Below, one piece after another: positions 23,510 through 62,288 of a DNA stretch of 64,000 nt (the stretch's first letter is position 1; each line of letters begins with the position of its first letter). The DNA lies in the NCBI RefSeq assembly GCF_001655675.1, contig NZ_LYRP01000001.1, forward strand, positions 744,001 through 808,000. Direction: 5' to 3'. The position numbers and the translations under genes are program-made. The notes below the pieces were generated by a model that saw only the letters and a list, made by a program, of their open reading frames with translations, was not told the DNA's origin and searched no databases. This DNA comes from Mangrovibacter phragmitis (GTDB lineage Bacteria; Pseudomonadota; Gammaproteobacteria; Enterobacterales; Enterobacteriaceae).

Positions 23510-25015
23510 TTAACAGGCAATATTTTCGGCGGGAGTATTACGCATTATTTGCACGGTCTTTTTCATTTCTGGCGCCAGCCACCGGTCCTCAACCCAAAAG
23601 GCTACTTCGCGGCGCAGCAGTGTAACGGCCTGAACCGTACCCGGAGCCAGGCGGGAGGTACCAATCAACTCCAGCGCCTGCGCTGCCAGCAAATATTCAA
23701 TGCCCAGAATCTGCCAGGTGTTATCGCACACCTGCAGGAGCTTAAGTGCCGCACTGGTGCCCATACTCAGGTGGTCTTCCTGTAAACCCGAGGTAATGTA
23801 ATTATCCAGCACTGCGGGTTGTGCCAGCCGCCGGTTCTCGCCACACAGAGATGCCGCTACATACTGGGCTATCATCATGCCAGAGTTAACCCCGGGTTTT
23901 GCCACCAGAAAAGGAGGTAGTTCACTAACCAGTGGATTAATCAGCCGGTCAAGGCGGCGCTCTGCCACACTGCCGGTCTCCGCCAGCGCAATTGCCAGCA
24001 AATCTGCAGCCATCGCCACCGATTCACCATGTGGATTTGCCTGAGAAACTACCTGCCAGTTACCTGGTTCGCCCAGCACCAACGGGTTGTCGGTTGCGGC
24101 ATTGAGTTCCTGATTCACCTGAGTTTCCACATGACGCCACTGCGCACGGCAGGCACCATGAATTTGCGGAACAGAGCGCAAACTGAGTGCATCCTGGGTA
24201 CGTACCCCCTGGTTTTCAGCCAGCCAGGCACTTCCATGAAGCATTGCACGTAACCGCTGGCCGGTGGCACTGACATCCGGGCTGGATTTCAGCGCCAGCA
24301 CACGTTCATCGAACGCTGCCAGTTGGCCCTTCAATGCTTCTATGCTCATGGCCCCGGTGACATCGGCCCAGTCCATTAACTGTTTCGCTTCACCCAACGC
24401 CAGGCAACTCAGCCCTGTCATGCAGGGTGTGCCATTCACCAGGCACAGGCCATCTTTCGCCCCCGGGTTCACCGCATCAATACCCTGCTCTGCCAGCGCA
24501 TCGCAGGCCAGCCAGCGTTTCCCTTGCCAGTTCACAAAGCCCATGCCCGTCAGGGCCAGACCAATATGCGCCATATGGGTCAAATACCCGACAGAACCCT
24601 GGGAAGGCACTTCCGGGGTAATGCCCTGATTGATAAATGCCAGCAACGCCCGGACAACATGGGGAGAAATACCGGAATACCCCAGGCTGTAGTTGGCCAC
24701 TGCCGCACACATAATGGCCCGGGTCTGCACCACACTAAGTAACGGCCCGACACCACAAGCGTGGCTCATCAGCGTGTTACGCGACAACTGGCTTAATGCC
24801 TCTGGCGGTAAAATCACATTGCATAACGCTCCCAGCCCGGTATTAATCCCGTAAGCGGGCTGGCCGCTGGCGACAATTTCTTCCACGATTTGCCGGGCAT
24901 TTTGCATGCGCTGCCATGCTGCTTCACTTAACTGCAGTTGCGCACCATGCTGTGCTACGGCAACCACGTCCTGCCAGGTGGCAGGTGTGTCGCCCCACTC
25001 TCTTATTTCACTCAT
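23510..25015 (-). CDS. MIO-less ammonia-lyase homologue (ergothionase-like)
   Basis: Member of the histidine/phenylalanine ammonia-lyase superfamily, 501 residues, full length. Conserved family features are YGINTG (Tyr55), SHACGVG, LVNGT, DNPLV and QEDHLSMGT. The cofactor segment, normally GS(V/L)GASGDLAPL, reads GSVGYLTHM at 140-148: aligned to HutH, exactly the Ala-Ser-Gly that cyclises to MIO is missing. The 9-base in-frame loss sits in an otherwise intact gene. Ergothionase is a known MIO-less member that eliminates trimethylamine. The product is probably a lyase for a histidine betaine, not a histidinase. It is the last gene of a HutC-linked ABC importer operon. Confidence 0.82.
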   Translation of the reverse strand: MSEIREWGDTPATWQDVVAVAQHGAQLQLSEAAWQRMQNARQIVEEIVASGQPAYGINTGLGALCNVILPPEALSQLSRNTLMSHACGVGPLLSVVQTRAIMCAAVANYSLGYSGISPHVVRALLAFINQGITPEVPSQGSVGYLTHMAHIGLALTGMGFVNWQGKRWLACDALAEQGIDAVNPGAKDGLCLVNGTPCMTGLSCLALGEAKQLMDWADVTGAMSIEALKGQLAAFDERVLALKSSPDVSATGQRLRAMLHGSAWLAENQGVRTQDALSLRSVPQIHGACRAQWRHVETQVNQELNAATDNPLVLGEPGNWQVVSQANPHGESVAMAADLLAIALAETGSVAERRLDRLINPLVSELPPFLVAKPGVNSGMMIAQYVAASLCGENRRLAQPAVLDNYITSGLQEDHLSMGTSAALKLLQVCDNTWQILGIEYLLAAQALELIGTSRLAPGTVQAVTLLRREVAFWVEDRWLAPEMKKTVQIMRNTPAENIAC

Positions 25016-25021
25016 TAATCT

Positions 25022-25798
25022 TTACCCCATTCGGGAAATAAACTGGTCAAAACGCGGGCTGGCATGCCGGGTAAACAGCGTATCCGGGTCTCCTTCGCAC
25101 TCAATATTGCCTTCATGCATAAACACCACCCGGTTTGCCACATTGCGCGCGAAGCCCATTTCGTGGGTTACGACCAGCATGGTGCGCCCTTCATCGGCCA
25201 GAGCACGCATGACATTGAGCACTTCGCCCACCAGTTCCGGATCCAGTGCCGAGGTAGGTTCATCAAACAAAATCACTTCCGGATCCATTGCCAGCGCACG
25301 GGCGATGGCCACCCGTTGTTGCTGACCACCAGAGAGTTGTTCCGGGTAGTAATCTTTGCGGGCGTACAGACCCACCTGGTTGAGCAAATGTTCAGCCTGC
25401 GCTTTACACTCTGCCAGCGGGCGTTTCAGCACATAGCGCGGGCCTTCCATGACGTTTTCCAGCACAGTGCGGTGCGACCACAAGTTAAAGCTCTGAAACA
25501 CCATGGCTACCCGGGCACGTAACTGCTCAATTTGGCGACGGCTGGCAGAGTGCCCGTGCCGGTGTGCTTTGGCATCGACAATAATGGTTTCCCCGGCAAC
25601 CTGAATTTCACCGGCATCAGGTACTTCCAGCAAATTAATGCAACGCAAAAAAGTACTTTTACCGGACCCGCTGGCACCCAGAACGGAAATAACATCGCCT
25701 TTGTTGGCAGACAGTGAAATGCTTTTTAAAACAGCATGGTCGCCGAATGACTTGCGGATATTCTGCACAGCCAGTACCGGCTGCTGGATGGCGGTCAT
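25022..25798 (-). CDS. His/Arg/opine-type ABC transporter ATP-binding protein
   Basis: ATPase of 258 residues of the HisP/OccP group. Walker A is [11 protein letters not shown], the signature is [15 protein letters not shown], Walker B is VILFDEPTSALDPE and the H-loop is VVTHEMGFA. The HisP-type insert between Walker A and the Q-loop (AHRHGHSASRRQIEQLRARV) is present. It overlaps the upstream permease gene by four bases and ends six bases before the MIO-less lyase gene, so import and cleavage are co-expressed. Confidence 0.9.
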   Translation of the reverse strand: MTAIQQPVLAVQNIRKSFGDHAVLKSISLSANKGDVISVLGASGSGKSTFLRCINLLEVPDAGEIQVAGETIIVDAKAHRHGHSASRRQIEQLRARVAMVFQSFNLWSHRTVLENVMEGPRYVLKRPLAECKAQAEHLLNQVGLYARKDYYPEQLSGGQQQRVAIARALAMDPEVILFDEPTSALDPELVGEVLNVMRALADEGRTMLVVTHEMGFARNVANRVVFMHEGNIECEGDPDTLFTRHASPRFDQFISRMG

Positions 25799-26550
25799 GA
25801 TTTTTCTCCCTTACTGCTGTTCAGCCCGGCAGGTGCATTGGCCGCAGCCCGCGCCTGAGCCCGACGAAAATTCGGTGTGAGGGCGTTTTCCAGCGCACGC
25901 CAAATTTGCACTATCAGGAAATTCAGAATCAGGTAAATCAACGCAGCACAAACAAACACCTCCATGGTTCGGTAGGTGCGCTGAATTATTTGCTGAGCCA
26001 CGCCAGTGACATCCCACACCGTAACAAGGCTTGCCAGCGCAGTGGATTTCACCAGTAAAATCGCTTCTGTAGACCAGGCAGGTAATGCATAACGCAGCAT
26101 CACTGGCCCAATTACCCGGCGAAATAACAGCCAGCGCGACATGCCACAGGCTTTTCCCGCTTCAACCTGCCCGGGGGGAACTGCCAGCAATGCGCCACGC
26201 AGAATTTCCGCTGTATAAGAGGCGGTACACAATGCCAGCGCCAGCACGGCACAGGTAAAAGGTTCACGCAGAACCGGCCAGACAAAACTGTGGCGTACTG
26301 CGCTGAACTGGCCCAGGCCGTAATAAATAAGAAACAACTGGATGAGCAATGGGGAGCCACGAAACACCAGAATGTACAGCCGGGCGAACCCGCTAAACAG
26401 CCAAAAGCGGCTCATCCGCATGGCAAGCACTACCAGTGCCAGGCAGCCGCCTACTGCCAGTGAACTGAAAAACAACCCCAGGGTGACCGGTAAAGCCCCC
26501 AGCAGTTTCACAAAGGTTTCGCTGAGAAACGCAAAATCAATCATCGCCAC
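25795..26550 (-). CDS. His/Arg-type ABC transporter permease (HisM-like)
   Basis: Inner-membrane permease of 251 residues. The segment LYILVFRGSPLLIQLFLIYYG and the EAA loop GQVEAGKACGMSRWLLFRRV mark it as HisM/OccM type. It is preceded five bases upstream by its partner permease and overlaps the ATPase gene by four bases. The C-terminal tail is rich in Ala and Arg. Confidence 0.88.
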   Translation of the reverse strand: MAMIDFAFLSETFVKLLGALPVTLGLFFSSLAVGGCLALVVLAMRMSRFWLFSGFARLYILVFRGSPLLIQLFLIYYGLGQFSAVRHSFVWPVLREPFTCAVLALALCTASYTAEILRGALLAVPPGQVEAGKACGMSRWLLFRRVIGPVMLRYALPAWSTEAILLVKSTALASLVTVWDVTGVAQQIIQRTYRTMEVFVCAALIYLILNFLIVQIWRALENALTPNFRRAQARAAANAPAGLNSSKGEKS

Positions 26551-26555
26551 TCCCG

Positions 26556-27275
26556 TTAATACTGTGCGGCGCCATGGCCTTGCCAGCCACGCCCCATGCG
26601 CTGTTCAGCCCGTTTAAACGCGCTGTTGGATAACACCGTCAACACCAGGTAACAGCCGCCACCCACCAGGTAGAAAGTGAAATAGTGGTGTGTGGAACCT
26701 GCCGCCACCTGGCTTGCCCGCATCAGCTCAACCACCCCGGTCACTGAAATCAGCGCGGAATCTTTCAGGGTCATTTGCCAAATATTGGACATAGCCGGTA
26801 AGGCATAACGGATAATTTGCGGTGCAACAATGCGGCGGCGAATACACCAGGGCAGCATGCCCATGGCCTGCGCGGCTTCAATATCACCGTGGGACACGGC
26901 GAGGCGCGCAGCACGGAACACTTCCCCCTGATACGAGCCAGAAATCAGGCCAATTGCCAGTGCACCAATCAAAAAAGGCGGAACTTCAATAAAACCGCTG
27001 GCACCAAACAGATGGCCCGCCCAGGTCACAACGCCCGAGCCGCCGAAATAAAACAGGTAGAGAATCAGTAGTTCGGGGATACCACGAAACACCACCGAGT
27101 ACCCTTCTCCGGCGACACGCATTAGCTTAACGGGTGAAAGCTTGGCGGCGGCAACACCACTGCCCACCACCGCACCAACCACCAGCGCTGCCAGCGACAA
27201 CAACAAGGTCGTGCAGGCAGCGCTTACAATCAGCGGCCCCCAACCATTTTCGCCAAAACCTAATAAGGCCATCAT
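26556..27275 (-). CDS. His/Arg-type ABC transporter permease (HisQ-like)
   Basis: Second permease subunit, 239 residues, HisQ/OccQ type: VVFRGIPELLILYLFYFGG and the EAA loop GDIEAAQAMGMLPWCIRRRI. AGAGGGG lies upstream of the tandem ATG codons. It follows the binding-protein gene by 13 bases within the HutC-controlled operon. Confidence 0.88.
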   Translation of the reverse strand: MMALLGFGENGWGPLIVSAACTTLLLSLAALVVGAVVGSGVAAAKLSPVKLMRVAGEGYSVVFRGIPELLILYLFYFGGSGVVTWAGHLFGASGFIEVPPFLIGALAIGLISGSYQGEVFRAARLAVSHGDIEAAQAMGMLPWCIRRRIVAPQIIRYALPAMSNIWQMTLKDSALISVTGVVELMRASQVAAGSTHHYFTFYLVGGGCYLVLTVLSNSAFKRAEQRMGRGWQGHGAAQY

Positions 27276-27288
27276 GTTTGTGCCCCTC

Positions 27289-28143
27289 TTACGGCGTCAC
27301 GTCCGTTTTAAACCATTTCTCACTGAGTTTTTTCACCGTGCCATCAGCAAGCGCGGCTTTGATTGCGGTATCCAGTTTCGCCTTCAGGTCAGTATCGCTT
27401 TTACGCACGCCCATCGCTTCCCCTTCACCCCAAATTGGCCCACCCAGTTTCGGGCCACTGAACGTGAGATCTTTGTTTTCCGGTTTACCCATAATCGAGT
27501 TGGCGAACGTGACATCATCAAACACGGCATCAATACGTTCCGCCTGCAAATCGAGAATGGCGTCTGCTGAACTGTTGTATTCACGTACCGTGGCAATATC
27601 TTTGAAGTATTTGTCGATAAATGGCGTGTAGACCGTACCGGAGGCAATTCCGATGGTTTTGCCTTTCAGGGCCGCACGCAACCTGGCTATGGCCGGGTTA
27701 ATTTCTGCCGGGTTGTCGTGCAGTTTAATCAGTGCATCTGCCCCGGTGGCTTCCGGCAACAGATTCCCTTTCAGGGTAATGAAGCTGGCCGGTGTCTGCG
27801 CGTAAGGCACCGTAAAATCAATGATCTTTTTACGTTCCGGGGTAATAACAATGGAATCCATGATGACATCGGACTTCCCTGCCTGCAGCCCGGCAATCAT
27901 CCCGTCCCAGTTCTGCACGCTCAGTTTGCAGGTCACTTCCATGCGTTTGCATAAATCCGCCATCAGTTCGGGCTCAAAACCGCTGAGCTTCCCGCCCGGC
28001 AACGTCATATTCCAGGGTTCATAACTCCCTTCGGTGGCGACAGTAATCGTTTTCCACTCTTTTGCCATTGCTGGCGTGCCGGAAAGTAGTGCCGCAAGCG
28101 CCGCGCTACTCAGTAGTAAACGGTAAACAGAAAGTACGTTCAT
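27289..28143 (-). CDS. Periplasmic substrate-binding protein of the lyase-linked importer
   Basis: Solute receptor of the SBP_bac_3 family, 284 residues. A classical signal peptide ends at TPAMA before KEWKTITVATEG. The mature part has GFEPELMADLCKRM and QNWDGMIAGLQAGKSDVIM, as in lysine/arginine/ornithine/histidine or opine receptors. The start is the ATG at 28143, seven bases after AGGAG. It is the first gene of the operon and has HutC-type operators 88 and 167 bases upstream. The ligand may be a histidine betaine rather than histidine itself. Confidence 0.87.
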   Translation of the reverse strand: MNVLSVYRLLLSSAALAALLSGTPAMAKEWKTITVATEGSYEPWNMTLPGGKLSGFEPELMADLCKRMEVTCKLSVQNWDGMIAGLQAGKSDVIMDSIVITPERKKIIDFTVPYAQTPASFITLKGNLLPEATGADALIKLHDNPAEINPAIARLRAALKGKTIGIASGTVYTPFIDKYFKDIATVREYNSSADAILDLQAERIDAVFDDVTFANSIMGKPENKDLTFSGPKLGGPIWGEGEAMGVRKSDTDLKAKLDTAIKAALADGTVKKLSEKWFKTDVTP

Positions 28144-28230
28144 CTGATGCTCCTGAAATAACCGGGTCGCTGACGCCGGTAACAACTGAAATGGGCTGGT
28201 GCCTTAATTTCCGGCACAAATGACTAAACA

Positions 28231-28240
28231 TGTATATACA
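28231..28240. promoter_or_regulatory. HutC-type operator upstream of the importer/lyase operon
   Basis: Perfect palindrome TGTATATACA, identical to the sites before hutF, hutC and hutU. Confidence 0.75.
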
Positions 28241-28309
28241 AGAAAAAACACAAAAAAGGCATTAACTCATAACCACTTGGGTTAATGCGCACCTGAGTGT
28301 GTCTTTACT

Positions 28310-28319
28310 TGTACATACA
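28310..28319. promoter_or_regulatory. Second HutC-like operator upstream of the importer/lyase operon
   Basis: TGTACATACA within TTGTACATACAA, one base different from the TGTATATACA consensus. Confidence 0.55.
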
Positions 28320-28484
28320 ACTTAGCAATTGATATGCCACTTCGAAGAAACCATCTTATTTCATTGAAAAACCGCGGGTTCCCAGGTGAAGGTGCACCAC
28401 CGGTTGCCAGTCAACCCGGTAATAACGCACCAAAGAAACGCATCCGCACCATAACAAAGCAGTAAAAATGGCGCACAACAGGGC

Positions 28485-28541: not shown

Positions 28542-29351
28542 TTATCTGGCGTGAGATTCTTCCACTGCGCGCGCACTGGTAACCAGAGTTTCAAGCAGGG
28601 ATTTCAGTACTTGCTGAAGTGCGGCCGCACGCTCTTCCTGCCAGGCGAATGGCGGGGTTTCATCCATATAATTACATTGTGCCAGTTCAAGTTGCACGGC
28701 ATGAATATGGTTAGCCGGGTCGCCATAAGCGCGGGTGATATGCCCACCTTTGAAGCGGCCATTGATTACCCAGGTGTAAGCCGACTGGGCTTCACAACAC
28801 GCACGCAGCGCCTCACTGACAGCAGGTGCGCAACTCGCGCCATGGTTGGTGCCAATATTCAAATCCGGCAGCCGCCCGTCGAACAGGCGGGGAATAACCG
28901 AGGCAATAGAATGCGCGTCAAACAACAGCGCATAGCCAAAACGGGCTTTGATAGCAGCCAGCGTATCGGCCAGTTGCTGGTGGTAACTCTGCCACACCTG
29001 CTCCAGGCACCACGCGCGGTGCGCTTTATCTGGCTCCTGCCCCGGGCGAAATACCGGCTCGCCATCGAACAACGTATCCGGGAACAGGCCAGTGGTGGCA
29101 CTCTGGTACAACGGCGTGTCATCAGCCGGGCGATTCAAATCCACCACAAAACGTGAATAATTAGCCTGAAGAATACTGGCCCCCATTGCGCTGGCAAAAG
29201 CATAGAGCGCCGGAATATGCCAGTCGGTATCGGGTAATAACCGGGCACGGTCTGTCAGCCCGGCTTCAACTTCCGGCGTCAGCGACGTACCGGCATGAGG
29301 CATGCTAATCAGCAGCGGAGTGGATCCTTCATGAAATAACCAGGGTGTCAT
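28542..29351 (-). CDS. hutG: N-formylglutamate deformylase HutG
   Basis: Amidohydrolase of 269 residues that releases formate from N-formyl-L-glutamate, the last step of the HutF-type histidine pathway. Family motifs are [16 protein letters not shown] at the start, [26 protein letters not shown] and GGHITRAYG. It overlaps the hutI stop by four bases. With HutF encoded nearby, the route to glutamate passes through formylglutamate. Confidence 0.9.
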
Positions 29352-30556
29352 ACACTTTCTCCACGGTAAACCACCTGGCAGGGTAACTGCCCGCCAAGCC
29401 AGTAAGCCAGTTCAGCGGGTTGCTTAACTGGCCAGTGAACAAAACTCGCCAGTTTCCCGGCTTCCAGAGACCCACACTCATGTTCCCTGCCCAGCGCTTT
29501 TGCCCCCCAAAGAGTAACCCCCGCCAGCGCCTCTTCCGGGGTCATGCGGAATAATGTGCAGGCCATATTCAGTATCAGGCGCAACGACAGCACTGGCGAT
29601 GTGCCAGGGTTTAAATCACTCGCCAGCGCCATTGGTACGCCATGCTTGCGAAATAACTCAACCGGTGGCATTTGGGTTTCACGCAGCATGTAATAAGCGC
29701 CAGGCAACAATACCGCCACAGTGCCACTTTGCGCCATGGCAATGACGTCGTCTTCGGTAGCATATTCCAGGTGATCGGCAGAAATAGCCTGGTAACGGGC
29801 CGCCAGGCTGCTTCCGCCCAGCGAGGAGAGTTGTTCAGCGTGCAATTTAACTGGCAGGTTCAGTTCACGGGCAGTATTAAATACCCGGGTGATTTGTTGC
29901 GGCGAGAATGCCAGATGTTCACAAAAACCATCCACAGCATCCACCAGCCCTTCCCGGTGCGCGGCAGGCAATAAGGTCTGGCAAATGTAATCAATCCAGC
30001 CATCCGCATTGTTCTGGTATTCCGGCGGAACGGCATGAGCAGCAAGAAACGTCGCCTGGATATCGACAGGCTCCAGTTGCGCCAGTTGGCGAATTACCCG
30101 CAACATGCGCAACTCACTGTCACTTTCCAGCCCGTAGCCAGATTTTATCTCCAGTGTGGTAACGCCTTCCTGGCGCAGGCAGCGCAGGCGCTCACGAGCC
30201 GTGGCAAGTAACTCTGCTTCACTGGCCTGGCGCGTGGCGTTCACCGTGGAAATAATCCCCCCACCGCTGGCGGCGATTTCAGCGTAACTGGCACCATTAA
30301 GGCGCATTTCAAACTCACCACTGCGGTCACCACCAAATACCAGGTGAGTATGGCAGTCAACCAGACCGGGGGTAATTATCCCGCCATTCAGCCGTTTAAC
30401 GTGCTGTGGCTGGCAATGGCCTGCGTCCCGTTCTTCGCCCACCCAGACAATACGCTCGCCTGCCACCGCAATCGCCCCTTGCCTGATAAGGTGGTACTTA
30501 CCGTCTTTGAGCGTGACCAGGTCCGCCCCGGTCCACAGCGTTTCGCATTGCAACAT
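29348..30556 (-). CDS. hutI: Imidazolonepropionase HutI
   Basis: Zinc amidohydrolase of 402 residues that opens 4-imidazolone-5-propionate to N-formimino-L-glutamate. Metal and substrate motifs are visible: [41 protein letters not shown] and [10 protein letters not shown]. The ATG at 30556 is chosen because it matches the family start and has GGAGG upstream. It is divergent from hutF across a region with a HutC operator. Confidence 0.92.
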
Positions 30557-30758
30557 TGTCTTGCCGCCTCCAGATGAGTGTGAATGATAGTAGCTCAACA
30601 TAATTCGGGTGCAGGCAAACGGCAAAACAGTGCGTAATCCATGTATAACGAATTAAGGCAGCGCCCGGACGGGCTCCCCGACCGCTGCACAGACTGAACC
30701 GGCTCAAACAACCTGCCTGCAATTAAACTATGAAGGGTATACAGCACAAATTAAAGTA

Positions 30759-30774
30759 TGTATATGTATATACA
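30759..30774. promoter_or_regulatory. HutC-type operator between hutI and hutF
   Basis: TGTATATACA (30765-30774) preceded by an overlapping TGTATATGTA (30759-30768). The position suits repression of hutF and perhaps of divergent hutI. Confidence 0.75.
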
Positions 30775-30797: not shown

Positions 30798-32150
30798 ATG
30801 GCAAGTTTTTATGCTGCACGGGCATTGTTGCCCGAGGGCTGGCGAACAGCAGTACGCATTGAGACAGAATCCGGGCGGATAACCGCCGTCACACCAGGCA
30901 GCCACAGTGATGGCGCCACGCCGTTACAGGGGCTGGTAGTACCGGGTATGGCTAACCTGCACTCCCATGCTTTTCAGGCAGCCATGGCCGGGCACGCTGA
31001 GGTGGCGGGTAACCCGCAGGACAGTTTCTGGACCTGGCGCGATGCCATGTATCACCTGGTTGGCCGCCTGACCCCGGAACTGATGGCTGATGTCGCCACC
31101 TGGTTGTATATCGACATGCTGAAAGGAGGTTATACCCAGGTTGCGGAGTTTCATTACCTGCACCACCAGCCTGACGGCACGCCTTACCCACAGGACGACA
31201 TGCTACGGGCACTGATTCAGGCAGCCACCACGGCAGGTATCGGGCAGACTATGCTGCCAGTACTTTACCGCTATGCTGGTTTTGGCGCACAGCCGCCGGT
31301 TGAAGGGCAACGGCGGTTTATTCAGAGCACGGAAAGCTGGCTGGAACAATACCAGCGCCTGTCATCTCTGACTGCGGGCAACCCGCTGCTTAACCAGGGC
31401 GTGTGTTTCCATTCGCTGCGCGCCGTAACCCAACAGGACATGGCGCAGGTTCTGGCCAATACTCCGGCTGATGCCCCCGTGCATATTCATATTGCTGAGC
31501 AGCAAAAAGAAGTCAATGACTGTCTGGCAAGCTATGGTGCGCGCCCGGTCGCCTGGTTACTGGAGAATATGCCGGTAGATAAACGCTGGTGCCTGGTTCA
31601 TGCCACACACCTGGACCAACAGGAAATTACCCGGCTCGCCGCTACAGGTGCTGTTGCCGGGCTTTGCCCCACCACCGAAGCCAACCTGGGCGATGGTATT
31701 TTCCCGGCGACGGACTGGCTGGCAGAACAGGGCCGCTGGGGTATTGGCTCCGACAGCCAGGTTTCACGCAGTGTGCTGGAAGAATTACGCCTGCTGGAAT
31801 ACGGCCAGCGCCTGCGTGACCAGCATCGTAACCGGCTGGCTCAGCCTGGCGCGCCCAGCGTGGGAGACGTGCTTTACACCCAGGCCGCTATGGGTGGCGC
31901 ACAGGCCTGTGGCGTTCAAATGGGCCAACTGGCACCCGGTATGCGCGCCGACTGGCTGTGCCTCAATGCCGACTACTGGCCGCAAAACCGCCCGGACGAC
32001 CAACTGATAAACCGCTGGTTATTTGCCGGGCAACGTAGCGAGATTCGTGATGTCTGGGTAGCCGGGCAGGCCGTAATTCGTAATGGGCAACACCCGCAGG
32101 AAGCCATTTATGCAGCCCGGTTTCGCAACGCACTGGAGGCACTGCAATGA
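30798..32150 (+). CDS. hutF: Formimidoylglutamate deiminase HutF
   Basis: Amidohydrolase-superfamily enzyme of 450 residues that deiminates N-formimino-L-glutamate to N-formylglutamate. Metal motifs are ANLHSHAFQ, VHIHIAEQQKEV, LVHATHLD and GIGSDSQVS. ACAGGGG-type sequence precedes the ATG. It overlaps hutD by four bases. Its presence, rather than HutG-type formimidoylglutamase, shows the five-step pathway. Confidence 0.92.
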   Translation: MASFYAARALLPEGWRTAVRIETESGRITAVTPGSHSDGATPLQGLVVPGMANLHSHAFQAAMAGHAEVAGNPQDSFWTWRDAMYHLVGRLTPELMADVATWLYIDMLKGGYTQVAEFHYLHHQPDGTPYPQDDMLRALIQAATTAGIGQTMLPVLYRYAGFGAQPPVEGQRRFIQSTESWLEQYQRLSSLTAGNPLLNQGVCFHSLRAVTQQDMAQVLANTPADAPVHIHIAEQQKEVNDCLASYGARPVAWLLENMPVDKRWCLVHATHLDQQEITRLAATGAVAGLCPTTEANLGDGIFPATDWLAEQGRWGIGSDSQVSRSVLEELRLLEYGQRLRDQHRNRLAQPGAPSVGDVLYTQAAMGGAQACGVQMGQLAPGMRADWLCLNADYWPQNRPDDQLINRWLFAGQRSEIRDVWVAGQAVIRNGQHPQEAIYAARFRNALEALQ

Positions 32151-32683
32151 TTCAGGTGTGGTCGGTTGAAAACTTACCCGTAACGCGCTGGCGCAATGGT
32201 GGCGGGGAAACCCGAGAAATTATCGCCACCCCAGGTCCTGAAGGGAGCGACTTTTTGTGGCGGGCAAGTATTGCCACACTGGATAAAGACGGGCCATTTT
32301 CCCACTTCAGCGGTATTGACCGGGTAATTACCCTGCTGGAGGGCACGGGTGTGACACTGACAGTGGATGGTAAAGACATTCCCCTGGCGTTACACACTCC
32401 ACTGGCTTTTTCCGGCGACAGCACCTGTACGGCACGCATCACCGGGCAGAGCCAGGATTTTAATATTATGACCCTGCGTGGAGCCTGCAACGCACATGTG
32501 GAAGTGGTAAACAGCGCACAACAGAGCCACAGCGGTGTTTGCCTGGTGCTCAGTGGCGAGTGGCAGTTAAATGGCAGCGAACTGGTTGCCGGAATGGGTG
32601 CGTGGTGGCACAACGAGCACAGCACTATCCGCCCGGTGTCTGCGGGCGGAAAGTTACTGTTTTGCCGTATTGAGGAAGGTTAA
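32147..32683 (+). CDS. hutD: HutD-family protein
   Basis: Cupin-like protein of 178 residues conserved in hut operons. The N-terminal block NLPVTRWRNGGGETREI and WRASIATLDKDGPFSHF are diagnostic. It has no established reaction; it has been proposed in Pseudomonas to moderate hut activity. It is coupled to hutF by a four-base overlap and its stop overlaps the convergent hutC stop by four bases. Confidence 0.88.
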   Translation: MIQVWSVENLPVTRWRNGGGETREIIATPGPEGSDFLWRASIATLDKDGPFSHFSGIDRVITLLEGTGVTLTVDGKDIPLALHTPLAFSGDSTCTARITGQSQDFNIMTLRGACNAHVEVVNSAQQSHSGVCLVLSGEWQLNGSELVAGMGAWWHNEHSTIRPVSAGGKLLFCRIEEG

Positions 32684-33435
32684 CCGTGGCCTTTAAACCG
32701 GCCCAGCAGTTTGTAGCGTGTACCCGGGTACAATAACCGGGCATAAGTGACCACACGGTTATCACTCCAGGTCTGGCGGCGAATCAGCAGGCAGGGTTCC
32801 GCCGCATTCATTTCCAGCAACTCGCGCTGTGCGGTGTCAGGCATTATCGCCTCAACAATATGTTCCCCTGCCGTTAATGGGGCCACCTGCATCAGATAAG
32901 TGTAGGGCGTAAGCGCCATAAAATCTTGCGACAGGTAATCCGGTGCCACCAGTGGGTTGACCAGGCGGTCTTCCATTTGCACCGGAACATCGTTTTCGTA
33001 ATGCACAATTACCGAATGGAAAATCGCCTGGCCGGTTGCCAGGCCCAGGACCGCCGCCTGAGCCGGGTCTGCCTGAATTTCGCTCATGCCAAGCACCCGG
33101 CAACTGTGGCGATGCCCGCGCTGAGTAATTTCTTCGGCAATGTTGTGCACTTCCAGCATGGCAGTGTAGCCTTTCATTTCGGCCACAAATGTCCCCACGC
33201 CCTGCATACGCAGCAGGTAGCCTTCACTGGTCAGTTCACGCAGCGCACGGTTGATGGTCATGCGGCTGACTCCCAGCCGGGCGACCAGTTCACTTTCAGA
33301 AGGCACGCGCTGGCGCGGCTTCCACGCCCCTTCGTTAATCTGGCTGATAATCGCCTGTTTCACGCGCTGATAAATGGGCGCGGGTTGGTCACCCATGGCA
33401 CTGACCAGTTGTGATACGGCGGTTTGCTCTGTCAT
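32680..33435 (-). CDS. hutC: Histidine utilization repressor HutC (GntR family)
   Basis: GntR-type repressor of 251 residues. The winged helix (about 20-85) includes PSESELVARLGVSRMTINRA, and a C-terminal UTRA ligand domain begins near residue 100. In characterised systems urocanate is the inducer. The ATG at 33435 follows AGGGA; the longer frame upstream is unsupported. TGTATATACA occurs in its own promoter and before hutU, hutF and the importer/lyase operon, consistent with autoregulation and a shared regulon. Confidence 0.9.
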   Translation of the reverse strand: MTEQTAVSQLVSAMGDQPAPIYQRVKQAIISQINEGAWKPRQRVPSESELVARLGVSRMTINRALRELTSEGYLLRMQGVGTFVAEMKGYTAMLEVHNIAEEITQRGHRHSCRVLGMSEIQADPAQAAVLGLATGQAIFHSVIVHYENDVPVQMEDRLVNPLVAPDYLSQDFMALTPYTYLMQVAPLTAGEHIVEAIMPDTAQRELLEMNAAEPCLLIRRQTWSDNRVVTYARLLYPGTRYKLLGRFKGHG

Positions 33436-33488
33436 AGCGGTTCCCTGCATTGTCCGGTTGATACGAGTGTAATCCCCTTTATTGAAGA

Positions 33489-33518
33489 TGTATATACATC
33501 CACACAATGTAGGTACAT
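33489..33518. promoter_or_regulatory. HutC operator(s) in the hutC promoter
   Basis: TGTATATACA (33489-33498, extended palindrome GATGTATATACATC) and a weaker TGTAGGTACA (33509-33518) lie 54 bases upstream of the hutC start. Confidence 0.7.
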
Positions 33519-33669
33519 ACCCTTCCTGCCCCGTTACTGTGCAAGTGCGCATCATTGTGGCGCAACCTGACTCGCCACCAGACAGGAGGGAAAGCTGCGG
33601 CCCTTGTCACAAGCTGAACACAGAGAAATAAAAAAGCTGGCGTGGCTTTTGCTAAATACTTTACCAGGA

Positions 33670-33679
33670 TGTATATACA
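33670..33679. promoter_or_regulatory. HutC operator upstream of hutU
   Basis: TGTATATACA followed by a half-site CTATACAT, about 70 bases before the hutU start. Confidence 0.7.
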
Positions 33680-33748
33680 AGACTATACATGGCTAACACC
33701 AAAATTTATCCGCGGCAATTACGCGATACCAAGACAGAGGAAATGAAT

Positions 33749-35443
33749 ATGAGCAAACCCACCAGTCAGTCCGTTGCCCGCCCGGTCCACGCCCCTAAGG
33801 GCACTGAGTTGCATTGCGCTAACTGGCTGATTGAAGCACCGTATCGCATGATTCAGAACAACCTCGACCCGGATGTTGCTGAACGCCCGGATGACCTGGT
33901 GGTGTATGGCGGTATTGGTAAAGCGGCCCGTAACTGGGATTGTTTTGATGAAATTCTTGCCAGCCTGCGCCGCCTGAAAGCAGACGAAACGCTGCTGGTG
34001 CAGTCTGGCAAACCGGTGGGAATCTTTCGCACTCACACCGATGCCCCCCGCGTGCTGATTGCCAACAGTAACCTGGTTCCCCACTGGGCAAACTGGGAAC
34101 ACTTCCAGGAGCTGGATAAAGCCGGGCTGATGATGTACGGCCAAATGACTGCTGGCTCGTGGATTTACATCGGCGCACAGGGCATTGTGCAGGGCACCTA
34201 TGAAACCTTTGCCGAAGCCGCACGCCAGCATTATAACGGCAGCCTGCGCGGTAAATGGATCCTGACGGCGGGCCTTGGCGGCATGGGCGGTGCGCAACCG
34301 CTGGCAGGGGTGATGGCTGGAGCCTGTGTACTGGCTATCGAGTGCCAGGAATCACGTATTGACTTCCGCCTGCGCACCCGTTATGTCGACCATAAAGCCT
34401 ACACGCTGGATGAAGCCCTGAAGTTGATTGAAGACGCCACGGCCAAAGGGGACGCCATCTCGGTTGCGCTGCTGGGTAATGCGGCCGAAATTGTGCCGGA
34501 GCTGGTAAAACGCGCCAAAGCCGGTGGCCCGAAACCGCACATTGTTACCGACCAGACGTCAGCACACGACCCGCTCAATGGCTATTTGCCGGTTGGCTGG
34601 TCCGTTGAAGAGTGGGAAGAATTACGCAAAACTGACCCGAAAAAAGTGATGCAGGCCGCGCGTGCTTCCATGGCAGAACATGTTAAAGCGATGCTCGATT
34701 TCTGGCATATGGGCGTGCCTACGGTGGATTACGGTAATAACATTCGCCAGGTTGCCAAAGACGAAGGGGTGGCAAACGCCTTTGATTTCCCGGGGTTTGT
34801 ACCGGCCTATATTCGCCCGCTGTTCTGTGAAGGCAAGGGGCCTTTCCGCTGGGTGGCACTGTCTGGCGACCCGGAAGATATCTATAAAACCGATGCCAAA
34901 CTGAAAGAACTGTTCCCGGACAACCACGCACTGCACAACTGGCTGGATATGGCTCGTGAGCGTATTGCTTTCCAGGGGCTGCCTTCGCGTATTTGCTGGC
35001 TGGGGCTGGGTGAACGCCATATTGCTGGCCTGGCGTTTAACGAGATGGTGCGTAACGGTGAACTGAAAGCGCCAGTCGTGATTGGCCGTGACCACCTGGA
35101 TTGCGGCTCGGTTGCTTCTCCTAACCGTGAAACAGAATCCATGAAAGATGGTTCAGACGCGGTTTCTGACTGGCCGTTACTCAATGCATTACTCAATACT
35201 GCCGGTGGCGCGACCTGGGTCAGCCTGCATCATGGTGGTGGTGTGGGTATGGGCTTCTCCCAACATGCCGGGGTGGTGATTGTGTGCGATGGTAGCGAAG
35301 CCGCTGATGTGCGCCTGGCACGCGTCTTGTGGAACGACCCGGCAACTGGCGTTATGCGCCATGCTGATGCCGGTTATGAAACAGCTATTGCCTGCGCACA
35401 AGAAAAAGGGCTGGACTTGCCGGGTATTCTGCCAAAAGCGTGA
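33749..35443 (+). CDS. hutU: Urocanate hydratase HutU
   Basis: Urocanase of 564 residues, full length, converting urocanate to imidazolonepropionate with tightly bound NAD+. Highly conserved stretches include [29 protein letters not shown] (NAD site), [26 protein letters not shown] and [15 protein letters not shown]. The start chosen is MSKPTSQ, eight bases after AGAGG; an earlier ATG at 33689 lacks a ribosome site. In most enterobacteria hutH follows hutU, but here hutU is followed directly by a terminator and convergent cobT. Sequence alone cannot exclude thiourocanate as an alternative substrate. Confidence 0.92.
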
Positions 35444-61334: not shown

Positions 61335-62288
61335 ATGAAAATGAAAGACAACTCAATTACTATAGCGAAAGGGATCGGAATAACATTAGTTGTAATTGCT
61401 CATATAATGGAAGGCTATATTGGTTCTGCAATTTTCACATTTCATATGCCATTCTTCTTCATTCTTTCCGGTATGCTTTATAAGCCTGAGGAGGATATAT
61501 CTTTTATTAGAAAGAAAACAAAGAGACTTTTATTTCCATACCTATTCTATAGTGCAATATTTATCATATTAGGCATTCAAGATATCCTCACTACAGATAA
61601 AAATACATATTTTTTGATAAAAGAACTGTTGATAAAAAACCTACTGGGCGGCCCATACATTGGTGGTTGGCAAAGTGTATTCTGGTTTATAAGTGTATTA
61701 TATCTTAGTCTGGTCATTTATAACTTCATAAGCAACAAACTTCGCAACATCACCATATTTAACCTCATGTTGTTTATGATTATATCTGCATATATATATA
61801 GTTTATTGCCTCATCCAAAAATTCCTTTTGATATTGATGCATGCCTATTTGCCATCCCATTAATCTATATAGGCGATAAATATAGAGAAAATATTAAATC
61901 TCTAAATTTTAATATGTGTTTGCTGATATTGACCTCTTATATCCTAGTAAATTATTTTATGCCAAAAAACCTGCAAATGGATATGAAATATATTCACTTC
62001 GGGATTCCATTTTTTTCGATTATTTCATCTGTTTGTGCAACAAATATAATTATAAATATTTCAAAGAAAATAACATCTAAAGATTATTTTTTCATTATGC
62101 TTGGTGAATGTTCCATGATGGTAATGTATATACACCAATACATACGTTTATATATCTTTGTTCCAATAATCAGTGAAAAATGGATTATCTTAATTCTAAC
62201 AATGTCAATATGCTCATTATTATGTTTAGTACACAGATGGATGTATACAAGAAACATTGGTATGAGTTTTTTAAAATTAGTGAATTAA
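61335..62288 (+). CDS. Acyltransferase 3 family membrane protein (second)
   Basis: Ten-helix membrane protein of 317 residues of the same superfamily but a different branch: ITIAKGIGITLVVIAHIMEG with the catalytic-type His, FHMPFFFILSGMLYKPEED, and FIRKKTKRLLFPYLFYS. It follows the first acyltransferase by 80 bases. The sequence suggests acetylation or similar decoration of a surface sugar. Confidence 0.8.
   Translation: MKMKDNSITIAKGIGITLVVIAHIMEGYIGSAIFTFHMPFFFILSGMLYKPEEDISFIRKKTKRLLFPYLFYSAIFIILGIQDILTTDKNTYFLIKELLIKNLLGGPYIGGWQSVFWFISVLYLSLVIYNFISNKLRNITIFNLMLFMIISAYIYSLLPHPKIPFDIDACLFAIPLIYIGDKYRENIKSLNFNMCLLILTSYILVNYFMPKNLQMDMKYIHFGIPFFSIISSVCATNIIINISKKITSKDYFFIMLGECSMMVMYIHQYIRLYIFVPIISEKWIILILTMSICSLLCLVHRWMYTRNIGMSFLKLVN

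Follow-up and report, generated by a model that had tools for sequence, protein, structure and literature searches.

A histidase-like lyase without the MIO-forming triad beside the hut genes of Mangrovibacter phragmitis: a candidate hercynine trimethylamine lyase

The lyase operon and the adjoining hut genes

The window considered here is a stretch of 64,000 nucleotides from Mangrovibacter phragmitis (contig NZ_LYRP01000001.1, positions 744,001 to 808,000), and feature coordinates refer to positions within it. The genes discussed below are listed with the matches on which each assignment rests.

23510..25015, minus strand: MIO-less HAL-family lyase, 501 aa (Pfam Lyase_aromatic, 526 bits; under both NCBIfam histidase cut-offs)
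24572..24598, minus strand: codons of GSVGYLTHM (residues 140-148), which replaces the MIO segment, GSVGASGDLAPL (coordinates counted by hand from the ORF start)
25022..25798, minus strand: ABC transporter ATPase, HisP-like, separated by 6 bp from the downstream lyase gene (profile matches)
25795..26550, minus strand: ABC permease, ArtM/HisM-like, with a 4-bp overlap with the ATPase gene (profile matches)
26556..27275, minus strand: ABC permease, HisQ-like (profile matches)
27289..28185, minus strand: periplasmic binding protein, listed with a TTG start at 28185, the likelier start being the ATG at 28143 (Pfam; structure matches)
28542..29351, minus strand: hutG, N-formylglutamate deformylase (368 bits, cut-off 279)
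29348..30625, minus strand: hutI, imidazolonepropionase (498 bits, cut-off 298)
30798..32150, plus strand: hutF, formimidoylglutamate deiminase (TIGR02022, 626 bits, cut-off 413)
32147..32683, plus strand: hutD (Pfam HutD, 138 bits)
32680..33555, minus strand: hutC, GntR-family histidine-utilization repressor, likelier start at the ATG at 33435 (TIGR02018, 309 bits, cut-off 220; NF011575, 333 bits, below its cut-off of 424)
33689..35443, plus strand: hutU, urocanate hydratase (hutU model, 966 bits, cut-off 375)

The binding protein, two permeases, ATPase, and lyase are encoded by a five-gene operon with the lyase gene last and gaps of 13, 5, −4, and 6 bp. This operon adjoins the hutG-I-F-D-C-U genes. 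The closest solved relatives of the binding protein are the octopine-binding and nopaline-binding proteins (209 and 206 bits, respectively), with 106.5 bits for the histidine-binding protein. Opine-binding proteins hold N-alpha-substituted amino acids.

A separate canonical histidase is encoded in the same genome, ~182 kb from the lyase gene and ~172 kb from hutU. Judged by eye, this hutH (in the stretch L033:5950-11708) has a taurine/nitrate-type ABC transporter on one side and an iron-containing alcohol dehydrogenase-like gene on the other. A dehydrogenase of this kind, together with an ABC transporter, hisC, and an alpha-hydroxy acid oxidase, is also encoded in a hut cluster with a canonical hutH on an E. 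coli plasmid.

Cofactor loop and active site

The lyase ORF has an ATG start and encodes a complete HAL/PAL-family protein of 501 aa. As the original prediction had read, the MIO-forming Ala-Ser-Gly triad is absent and residues 140-148 are GSVGYLTHM. The accompanying statement that exactly three residues are lost in frame holds for the net change: the loop GSVG-Y-LTHM is 3 alignment columns shorter than the histidase loop GSVG-ASGD-LAPL, and the frame is kept. What is replaced, however, are the 4 residues A-S-G-D, and their place is taken by a single Tyr (Tyr144). Likewise, the rest of the active-site framework had been described as kept, which is true for Y55, SHACGVG, N194-G-T, and Q412-E-D-H-L-S-M-G, but not for Tyr280 and Phe329 of P. 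putida HutH, which according to the alignment are replaced by Leu277 and Pro328. Both positions are named mutated sites of P. putida histidase in the structure matches. The histidase active-site set itself (Y55, H85, N194, R280, and E413) is complete; its P. putida HutH equivalents, which we take to be Tyr53, His83, Asn195, Arg283, and Glu414, bind the imidazole and the carboxylate and take the proton.

According to the two NCBIfam histidase models, the lyase scores 520.6 bits (cut-off 524) and 502.2 bits (cut-off 539.15), while the relative from P. simiae (L088) lies narrowly above both cut-offs. Since the latter also belongs to the MIO-less type, these cut-offs cannot separate MIO-less lyases from canonical ones. 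In direct comparison, the window lyase matches histidases better than ergothionase (315 vs 208 bits). The AlphaFold monomer has an overall pLDDT of 87.4, with weak values for residues 141-150 (mean 71) and for the Glu413 loop (53-56). The nearest fold to this model is P. putida histidase (TM 0.90, 37% identity), and ergothionase reaches TM 0.88.

Three other explanations were discarded. Against a frameshift or pseudogene speak the open frame and a dN/dS of ~0.05 in comparison with Mangrovibacter plantisponsor (dN 0.0098, dS 0.204). Against a recent duplicate of the genome's own histidase speak ~40% identity and a separate clade. As for a phylogenetic position among MIO-containing lyases with the triad shifted elsewhere in the protein, which the original prediction had named as an outcome that would speak against it, the trees do not show it: they place the lyase in a separate clade.

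Relatives of the lyase

Relatives were obtained by scanning genome contigs with a ten-sequence clade alignment; at least 586 were confirmed, and the best 80 of them, representing 79 distinct proteins, were kept and read. Neither of the two scan patterns contained the loop. The kept loci comprise M. plantisponsor, 22 loci from Pantoea, Erwinia, Enterobacter, Raoultella, Dickeya, and Prodigiosinella, and 57 from Pseudomonas. Among the best 80 of at least 586, the closest relative is that of M. plantisponsor (98%).

The loop GSVGYL[TS]H is found in all 80 kept relatives (72 with GSVGYLTH and 8 with GSVGYLSH), and ASG in none. Tyr55, His85, Tyr144, Asn194, Arg280, Pro328, and Glu413 are each present in 80 of 80, and Leu277 in 78, the other 2 having Met. 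Canonical HutH matches occur in 69 of the 80 loci, and those 58 with open frames of at least 300 aa were read: all of them have GASGD, with Ala, Tyr, and Phe at the positions of residues 144, 277, and 328, respectively.

Among 246 genomes sampled from the organism's own family, the clade is present in 18 (813-886 bits, the next best match having 477), each with the loop GSVGYL[TS]HMA. All 18 carriers also have a canonical-type histidase match, in which the triad was read for 12 (in G187 from a gene in pieces), the remaining 6 being assigned by score only. In G187 (L136) the MIO-less gene is intact, and a sequencing error might be behind the fragmented canonical hutH.

More distant lyases with a Tyr loop come from plasmids of Rhizobium, Burkholderia, Aminobacter, Aureimonas, Priestia, Klebsiella, and a deltaproteobacterium. 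The Rhizobium/Burkholderia branch has different residues at 325-329, and a single substrate for the whole family is therefore not assured. A second type of MIO-less lyase, with the loop GSVGYLIATA, is encoded on a Klebsiella pneumoniae plasmid (L053:6968-8500). Near DNA matches to it come from 203 plasmid records, 191 of them of Klebsiella, and from 2 of the 5426 E. coli genomes searched; in 163 of the plasmid records the match spans at least 80% of the query, and the loop was read in L053 only. The cassette of the window, when searched against E. coli genomes, gave no match.

In the trees, the clade of the window lyase has support of 96/98 and joins the Rhizobium/Burkholderia branch with 100/100. 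Ergothionase forms a long branch of unsure position. The branches are long, and the AU test rejects neither a single clade formed by all MIO-less rows (p-AU 0.372) nor one formed by the Tyr-loop rows alone (p-AU 0.266), so neither one MIO loss nor several can be taken as established, and with these values the claim of an independent second loss was dropped. A relative of ergothionase was also seen on pSymA of Sinorhizobium meliloti (L052:4908-6545, 302 bits to 6s7j); its N-terminus resembles a signal peptide by eye, and the protein is perhaps periplasmic.

Genomic context in other lineages

At least one hut gene besides the lyase gene is found in 77 of the 80 kept loci, and all four transporter genes stand beside the lyase gene in 23 of 23 enteric loci. 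A third genome of the genus (G002) has hut genes and lacks the cassette, in whose place a remnant (L041:8300-8610) codes for lyase residues 477-500 with 88% identity; given this 3' remnant, the cassette was probably lost there. In one enteric genome (G202), an additional copy of hutU adjoins the cassette. Plasmids of Burkholderia and Rhizobium etli have the same cassette beside a hutC. The Aureimonas hut cluster runs hutC, hutF, lyase, hutI, hutG, hutU, hutD, the MIO-less gene being the sole lyase gene in the stretch seen. In Rhizobium sp. K1/93 (L046:10478-11632), an amino-acid oxidase gene annotated as N-methyl-tryptophan oxidase (solA) directly follows the MIO-less lyase gene.

As for Pseudomonas, the order in P. 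simiae (L088) is hutU, purine-type permease, OpuAC-class ABC transporter, MIO-less lyase, canonical HutH, hutI, and hutG. In 57 of 57 Pseudomonas loci, a HutX-like binding-protein gene precedes the lyase gene at a distance of no more than 4 kb, with a similar permease in 47. The canonical HutH gene comes directly after the MIO-less gene in 55 of these loci, and elsewhere in the locus in the other two (L086 and L132). HutX of P. simiae belongs to the OpuAC, glycine-betaine class, as does the binding protein encoded on a Klebsiella plasmid; HutXWV-type transporters also carry histidine. The class of transporter varies from lineage to lineage and does not determine the substrate.

The hutH1 gene of P. 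fluorescens SBW25 was reportedly called nonfunctional in a 2007 paper on this strain. Published work places it after hutXWV and before the canonical hutH, and describes it as dispensable for growth on histidine. Dispensability on histidine says nothing of the role of hutH1.

Operator-like sites

The following sites resemble HutC-type operators; none of them is assigned to a strand.

28231..28240: HutC-type palindrome TGTATATACA, upstream of the binding-protein gene by 45 bp (listed TTG start) or 87 bp (ATG)
28308..28321: weaker second operator-like site with 2 mismatches to CTTGTATATACAAG
30765..30774: TGTATATACA between hutI and hutF
33489..33498: TGTATATACA within the listed frame of hutC and 53 bp upstream of its likelier start
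33670..33679: TGTATATACA upstream of hutU

The palindrome TGTATATACA, which we take to be the core of the HutC operator, is present in 5 copies in the window, where 0.05 would be expected, and 4 of the 5 are in the hut cluster. The fifth, at 62125, lies inside what by eye is an acyltransferase-like ORF and is taken as a chance occurrence. A further copy stands just before the distant canonical hutH. In 24 of 26 cassettes (25 distinct, as L035 and L055 are from the same genome), the palindrome precedes the extrapolated start of the binding-protein gene by at most 200 bp; in the remaining 2 it overlaps the start (L061) or lies at most 14 bp inside it (L036). Three of those 24 loci (L079, L083, and L100) show no other hut gene. 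The proposed placement of the lyase in the Hut regulon is thus backed by operator-like palindromes upstream of the operon, and these sites support the assignment of the lyase operon to the HutC regulon, with a putative operator at its promoter.

Proposed function and alternatives

It seems rather probable that the lyase is a MIO-less trimethylamine lyase for hercynine (N-alpha-trimethyl-L-histidine) that yields urocanate, is served by its own transporter, is controlled by HutC, and relies on the hut genes for the way to glutamate. MIO activates a primary amine leaving group. The residues for imidazole and carboxylate are invariant and the amine side is changed, which suggests a histidine substrate modified at its alpha nitrogen. 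The opine-binder-like binding protein of the window and the glycine-betaine-class partners in P. simiae and on the Klebsiella plasmid also count in favor of this reading. A histidine with a quaternary amine, suggested in the original prediction as the likely substrate, is accordingly supported by both the sequence and its context.

Under the hercynine reading, the ABC transporter of the operon would import hercynine, and the histidase framework (Tyr55, His85, Asn194, Arg280, and Glu413) would bind its imidazole and carboxylate and abstract the beta proton. The quaternary ammonium would leave without covalent activation, so that MIO would be unneeded; Tyr144 at the MIO position may hold the trimethylammonium by a cation-pi contact, and Leu277 and Pro328 would make room for it. 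Trimethylamine would thereby be expelled, the resulting urocanate would be taken to glutamate by HutU, HutI, HutF, and HutG, and repression by HutC would cover both the operon and the hut genes.

An unlikely alternative is that the lyase cleaves a histidine with a different N-alpha substitution (dimethylhistidine or an opine, e.g., histopine) into urocanate and an amine or amino acid. This would agree with the imidazole and carboxylate anchors being kept while the amine side is altered, and with a binding protein nearest to octopine- and nopaline-binding proteins; the neighbors in P. simiae and on the Klebsiella plasmid, however, are betaine-type transporters, and by general chemistry such amines leave poorly without activation.

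It is quite unlikely that the lyase is an ergothionase, which would release trimethylamine from ergothioneine (or its sulfonate) and leave thiourocanate or a relative. Ergothionase is the characterized MIO-less relative (6s7j, 208 bits, TM-score 0.88), and a MIO loss common to all MIO-less rows, with the p-AU given above, would suit such an identity. The 6s7j loop, however, has Glu with one column lost, as against Tyr with three, and Asn194 and Gln412 correspond to Ser and Ile there. With the loops different, histidases scoring higher, and ergothionase on its own long branch of unsure position, a close kinship to ergothionase finds no support, and the lyase does not qualify as an ergothionase orthologue. 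Moreover, the adjoining HutU is a urocanate hydratase that fails both the thiourocanate hydratase model (684 bits, cut-off 930) and the S-methyl thiourocanate hydratase model (693 bits, cut-off 880). No thiourocanate hydratase over the curated cut-off was found in the 18 carrier genomes (own plus 17), nor in 14 control genomes, so that this search is without a positive control. Together, the identity of HutU and the lack of such a hydratase over the cut-off favor hercynine over ergothioneine, and an equal standing of the two as candidates is not supported.

It is hardly likely that the lyase is a catalytically inactive paralogue of histidase with a regulatory or stabilizing effect on HutH, e.g., in mixed tetramers. 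The absent cofactor, the dispensability of hutH1 on histidine, and the position directly before canonical HutH in 55/57 Pseudomonas loci are what such a role would predict. In contrast, the carboxylate-binding and proton-taking residues are invariant in 80/80 relatives, the gene is under strong purifying selection, and the enteric lyase travels with its own transporter and can be far from HutH, as with the ~182 kb in the M. phragmitis genome. An active L-histidine ammonia-lyase with MIO unneeded or formed elsewhere is highly improbable: the nearest solved fold is a histidase (TM 0.90, 37% identity) and plasmid records name relatives hutH, but ASGD is absent in 80/80 kept relatives, Tyr280 and Phe329 are replaced, canonical HutH is present besides, and hutH1 is not required on histidine.

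Extended to the family, the hercynine reading would imply that lyases filed as histidine ammonia-lyase (hutH1 of fluorescent pseudomonads, the enteric cassette, and Klebsiella plasmids) are histidine-betaine trimethylamine lyases with Tyr replacing MIO, a generalization whose chances we put at about even. If it is true, the hut pathway has a second, betaine entry in many proteobacteria, a common annotation is corrected while a classic catabolic pathway gains an entry, and the dispensable hutH1 of Pseudomonas, the 'second histidase', gains a function. A quaternary leaving group would then allow the HAL scaffold to dispense with the cofactor that defines it. Soil, plant, and gut bacteria would release trimethylamine from fungal hercynine, unseen by surveys of cutC, carnitine enzymes, and ergothionase. 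According to a recent ergothionase survey, one Burkholderia sequence served as the query, and poorly annotated or divergent homologues are not accounted for (PMC13405746). The literature on hercynine breakdown, thiourocanate, and hutH1, in which subscription journals (work on ergothioneine breakdown included) were thinly covered, yielded no report of a hercynine lyase or of the activity of a clade member.

Comparison with known systems

With HutH (EC 4.3.1.3; P. putida, PDB 1b8f and 1eb4) the window lyase shares the fold (TM 0.90), the length, the imidazole and carboxylate residues, and the hut context. In contrast to HutH, it is without Ala-Ser-Gly and hence without MIO, and it has Tyr for ASGD, Leu for Tyr280, and Pro for Phe329.

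The ergothionase of T. denticola (PDB 6s7j and 6s7q) is likewise a HAL fold without MIO, with matching Tyr, His, Leu (for Tyr280), Arg, and Glu. Ergothionase is stated to release trimethylamine and to lack MIO (PMC13405746); both enzymes would expel a tertiary amine, if the substrate proposed for the window lyase is right. Identity between the two is, however, 28-29%, and no thiourocanate hydratase partner over the cut-off was found for the window lyase (by the search without a positive control). Furthermore, the 6s7j loop has lost one column and has Glu (E142), whereas that of the window lyase has lost three and has Tyr; 6s7j also has Ser (S194) for Asn194 and Ile (I410) for Gln412.

The Klebsiella plasmid type shares the Tyr at the MIO position and the Leu for Tyr280, and is encoded beside hutU, hutD, hutC, hutF, and an OpuAC transporter. 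Its identity to the window lyase is, however, ~41%, with Gly for Asn194 and Gly for Phe329, and judging by these residues it possibly acts on another substrate. As for HutH1 of SBW25, its place matches that of the MIO-less gene in 55 of the 57 Pseudomonas loci, P. simiae L088 among them, and the likeness is one of position. In Pseudomonas the lyase is accompanied by an OpuAC-type transporter, whereas in the window it is accompanied by a transporter of the opine/histidine type.
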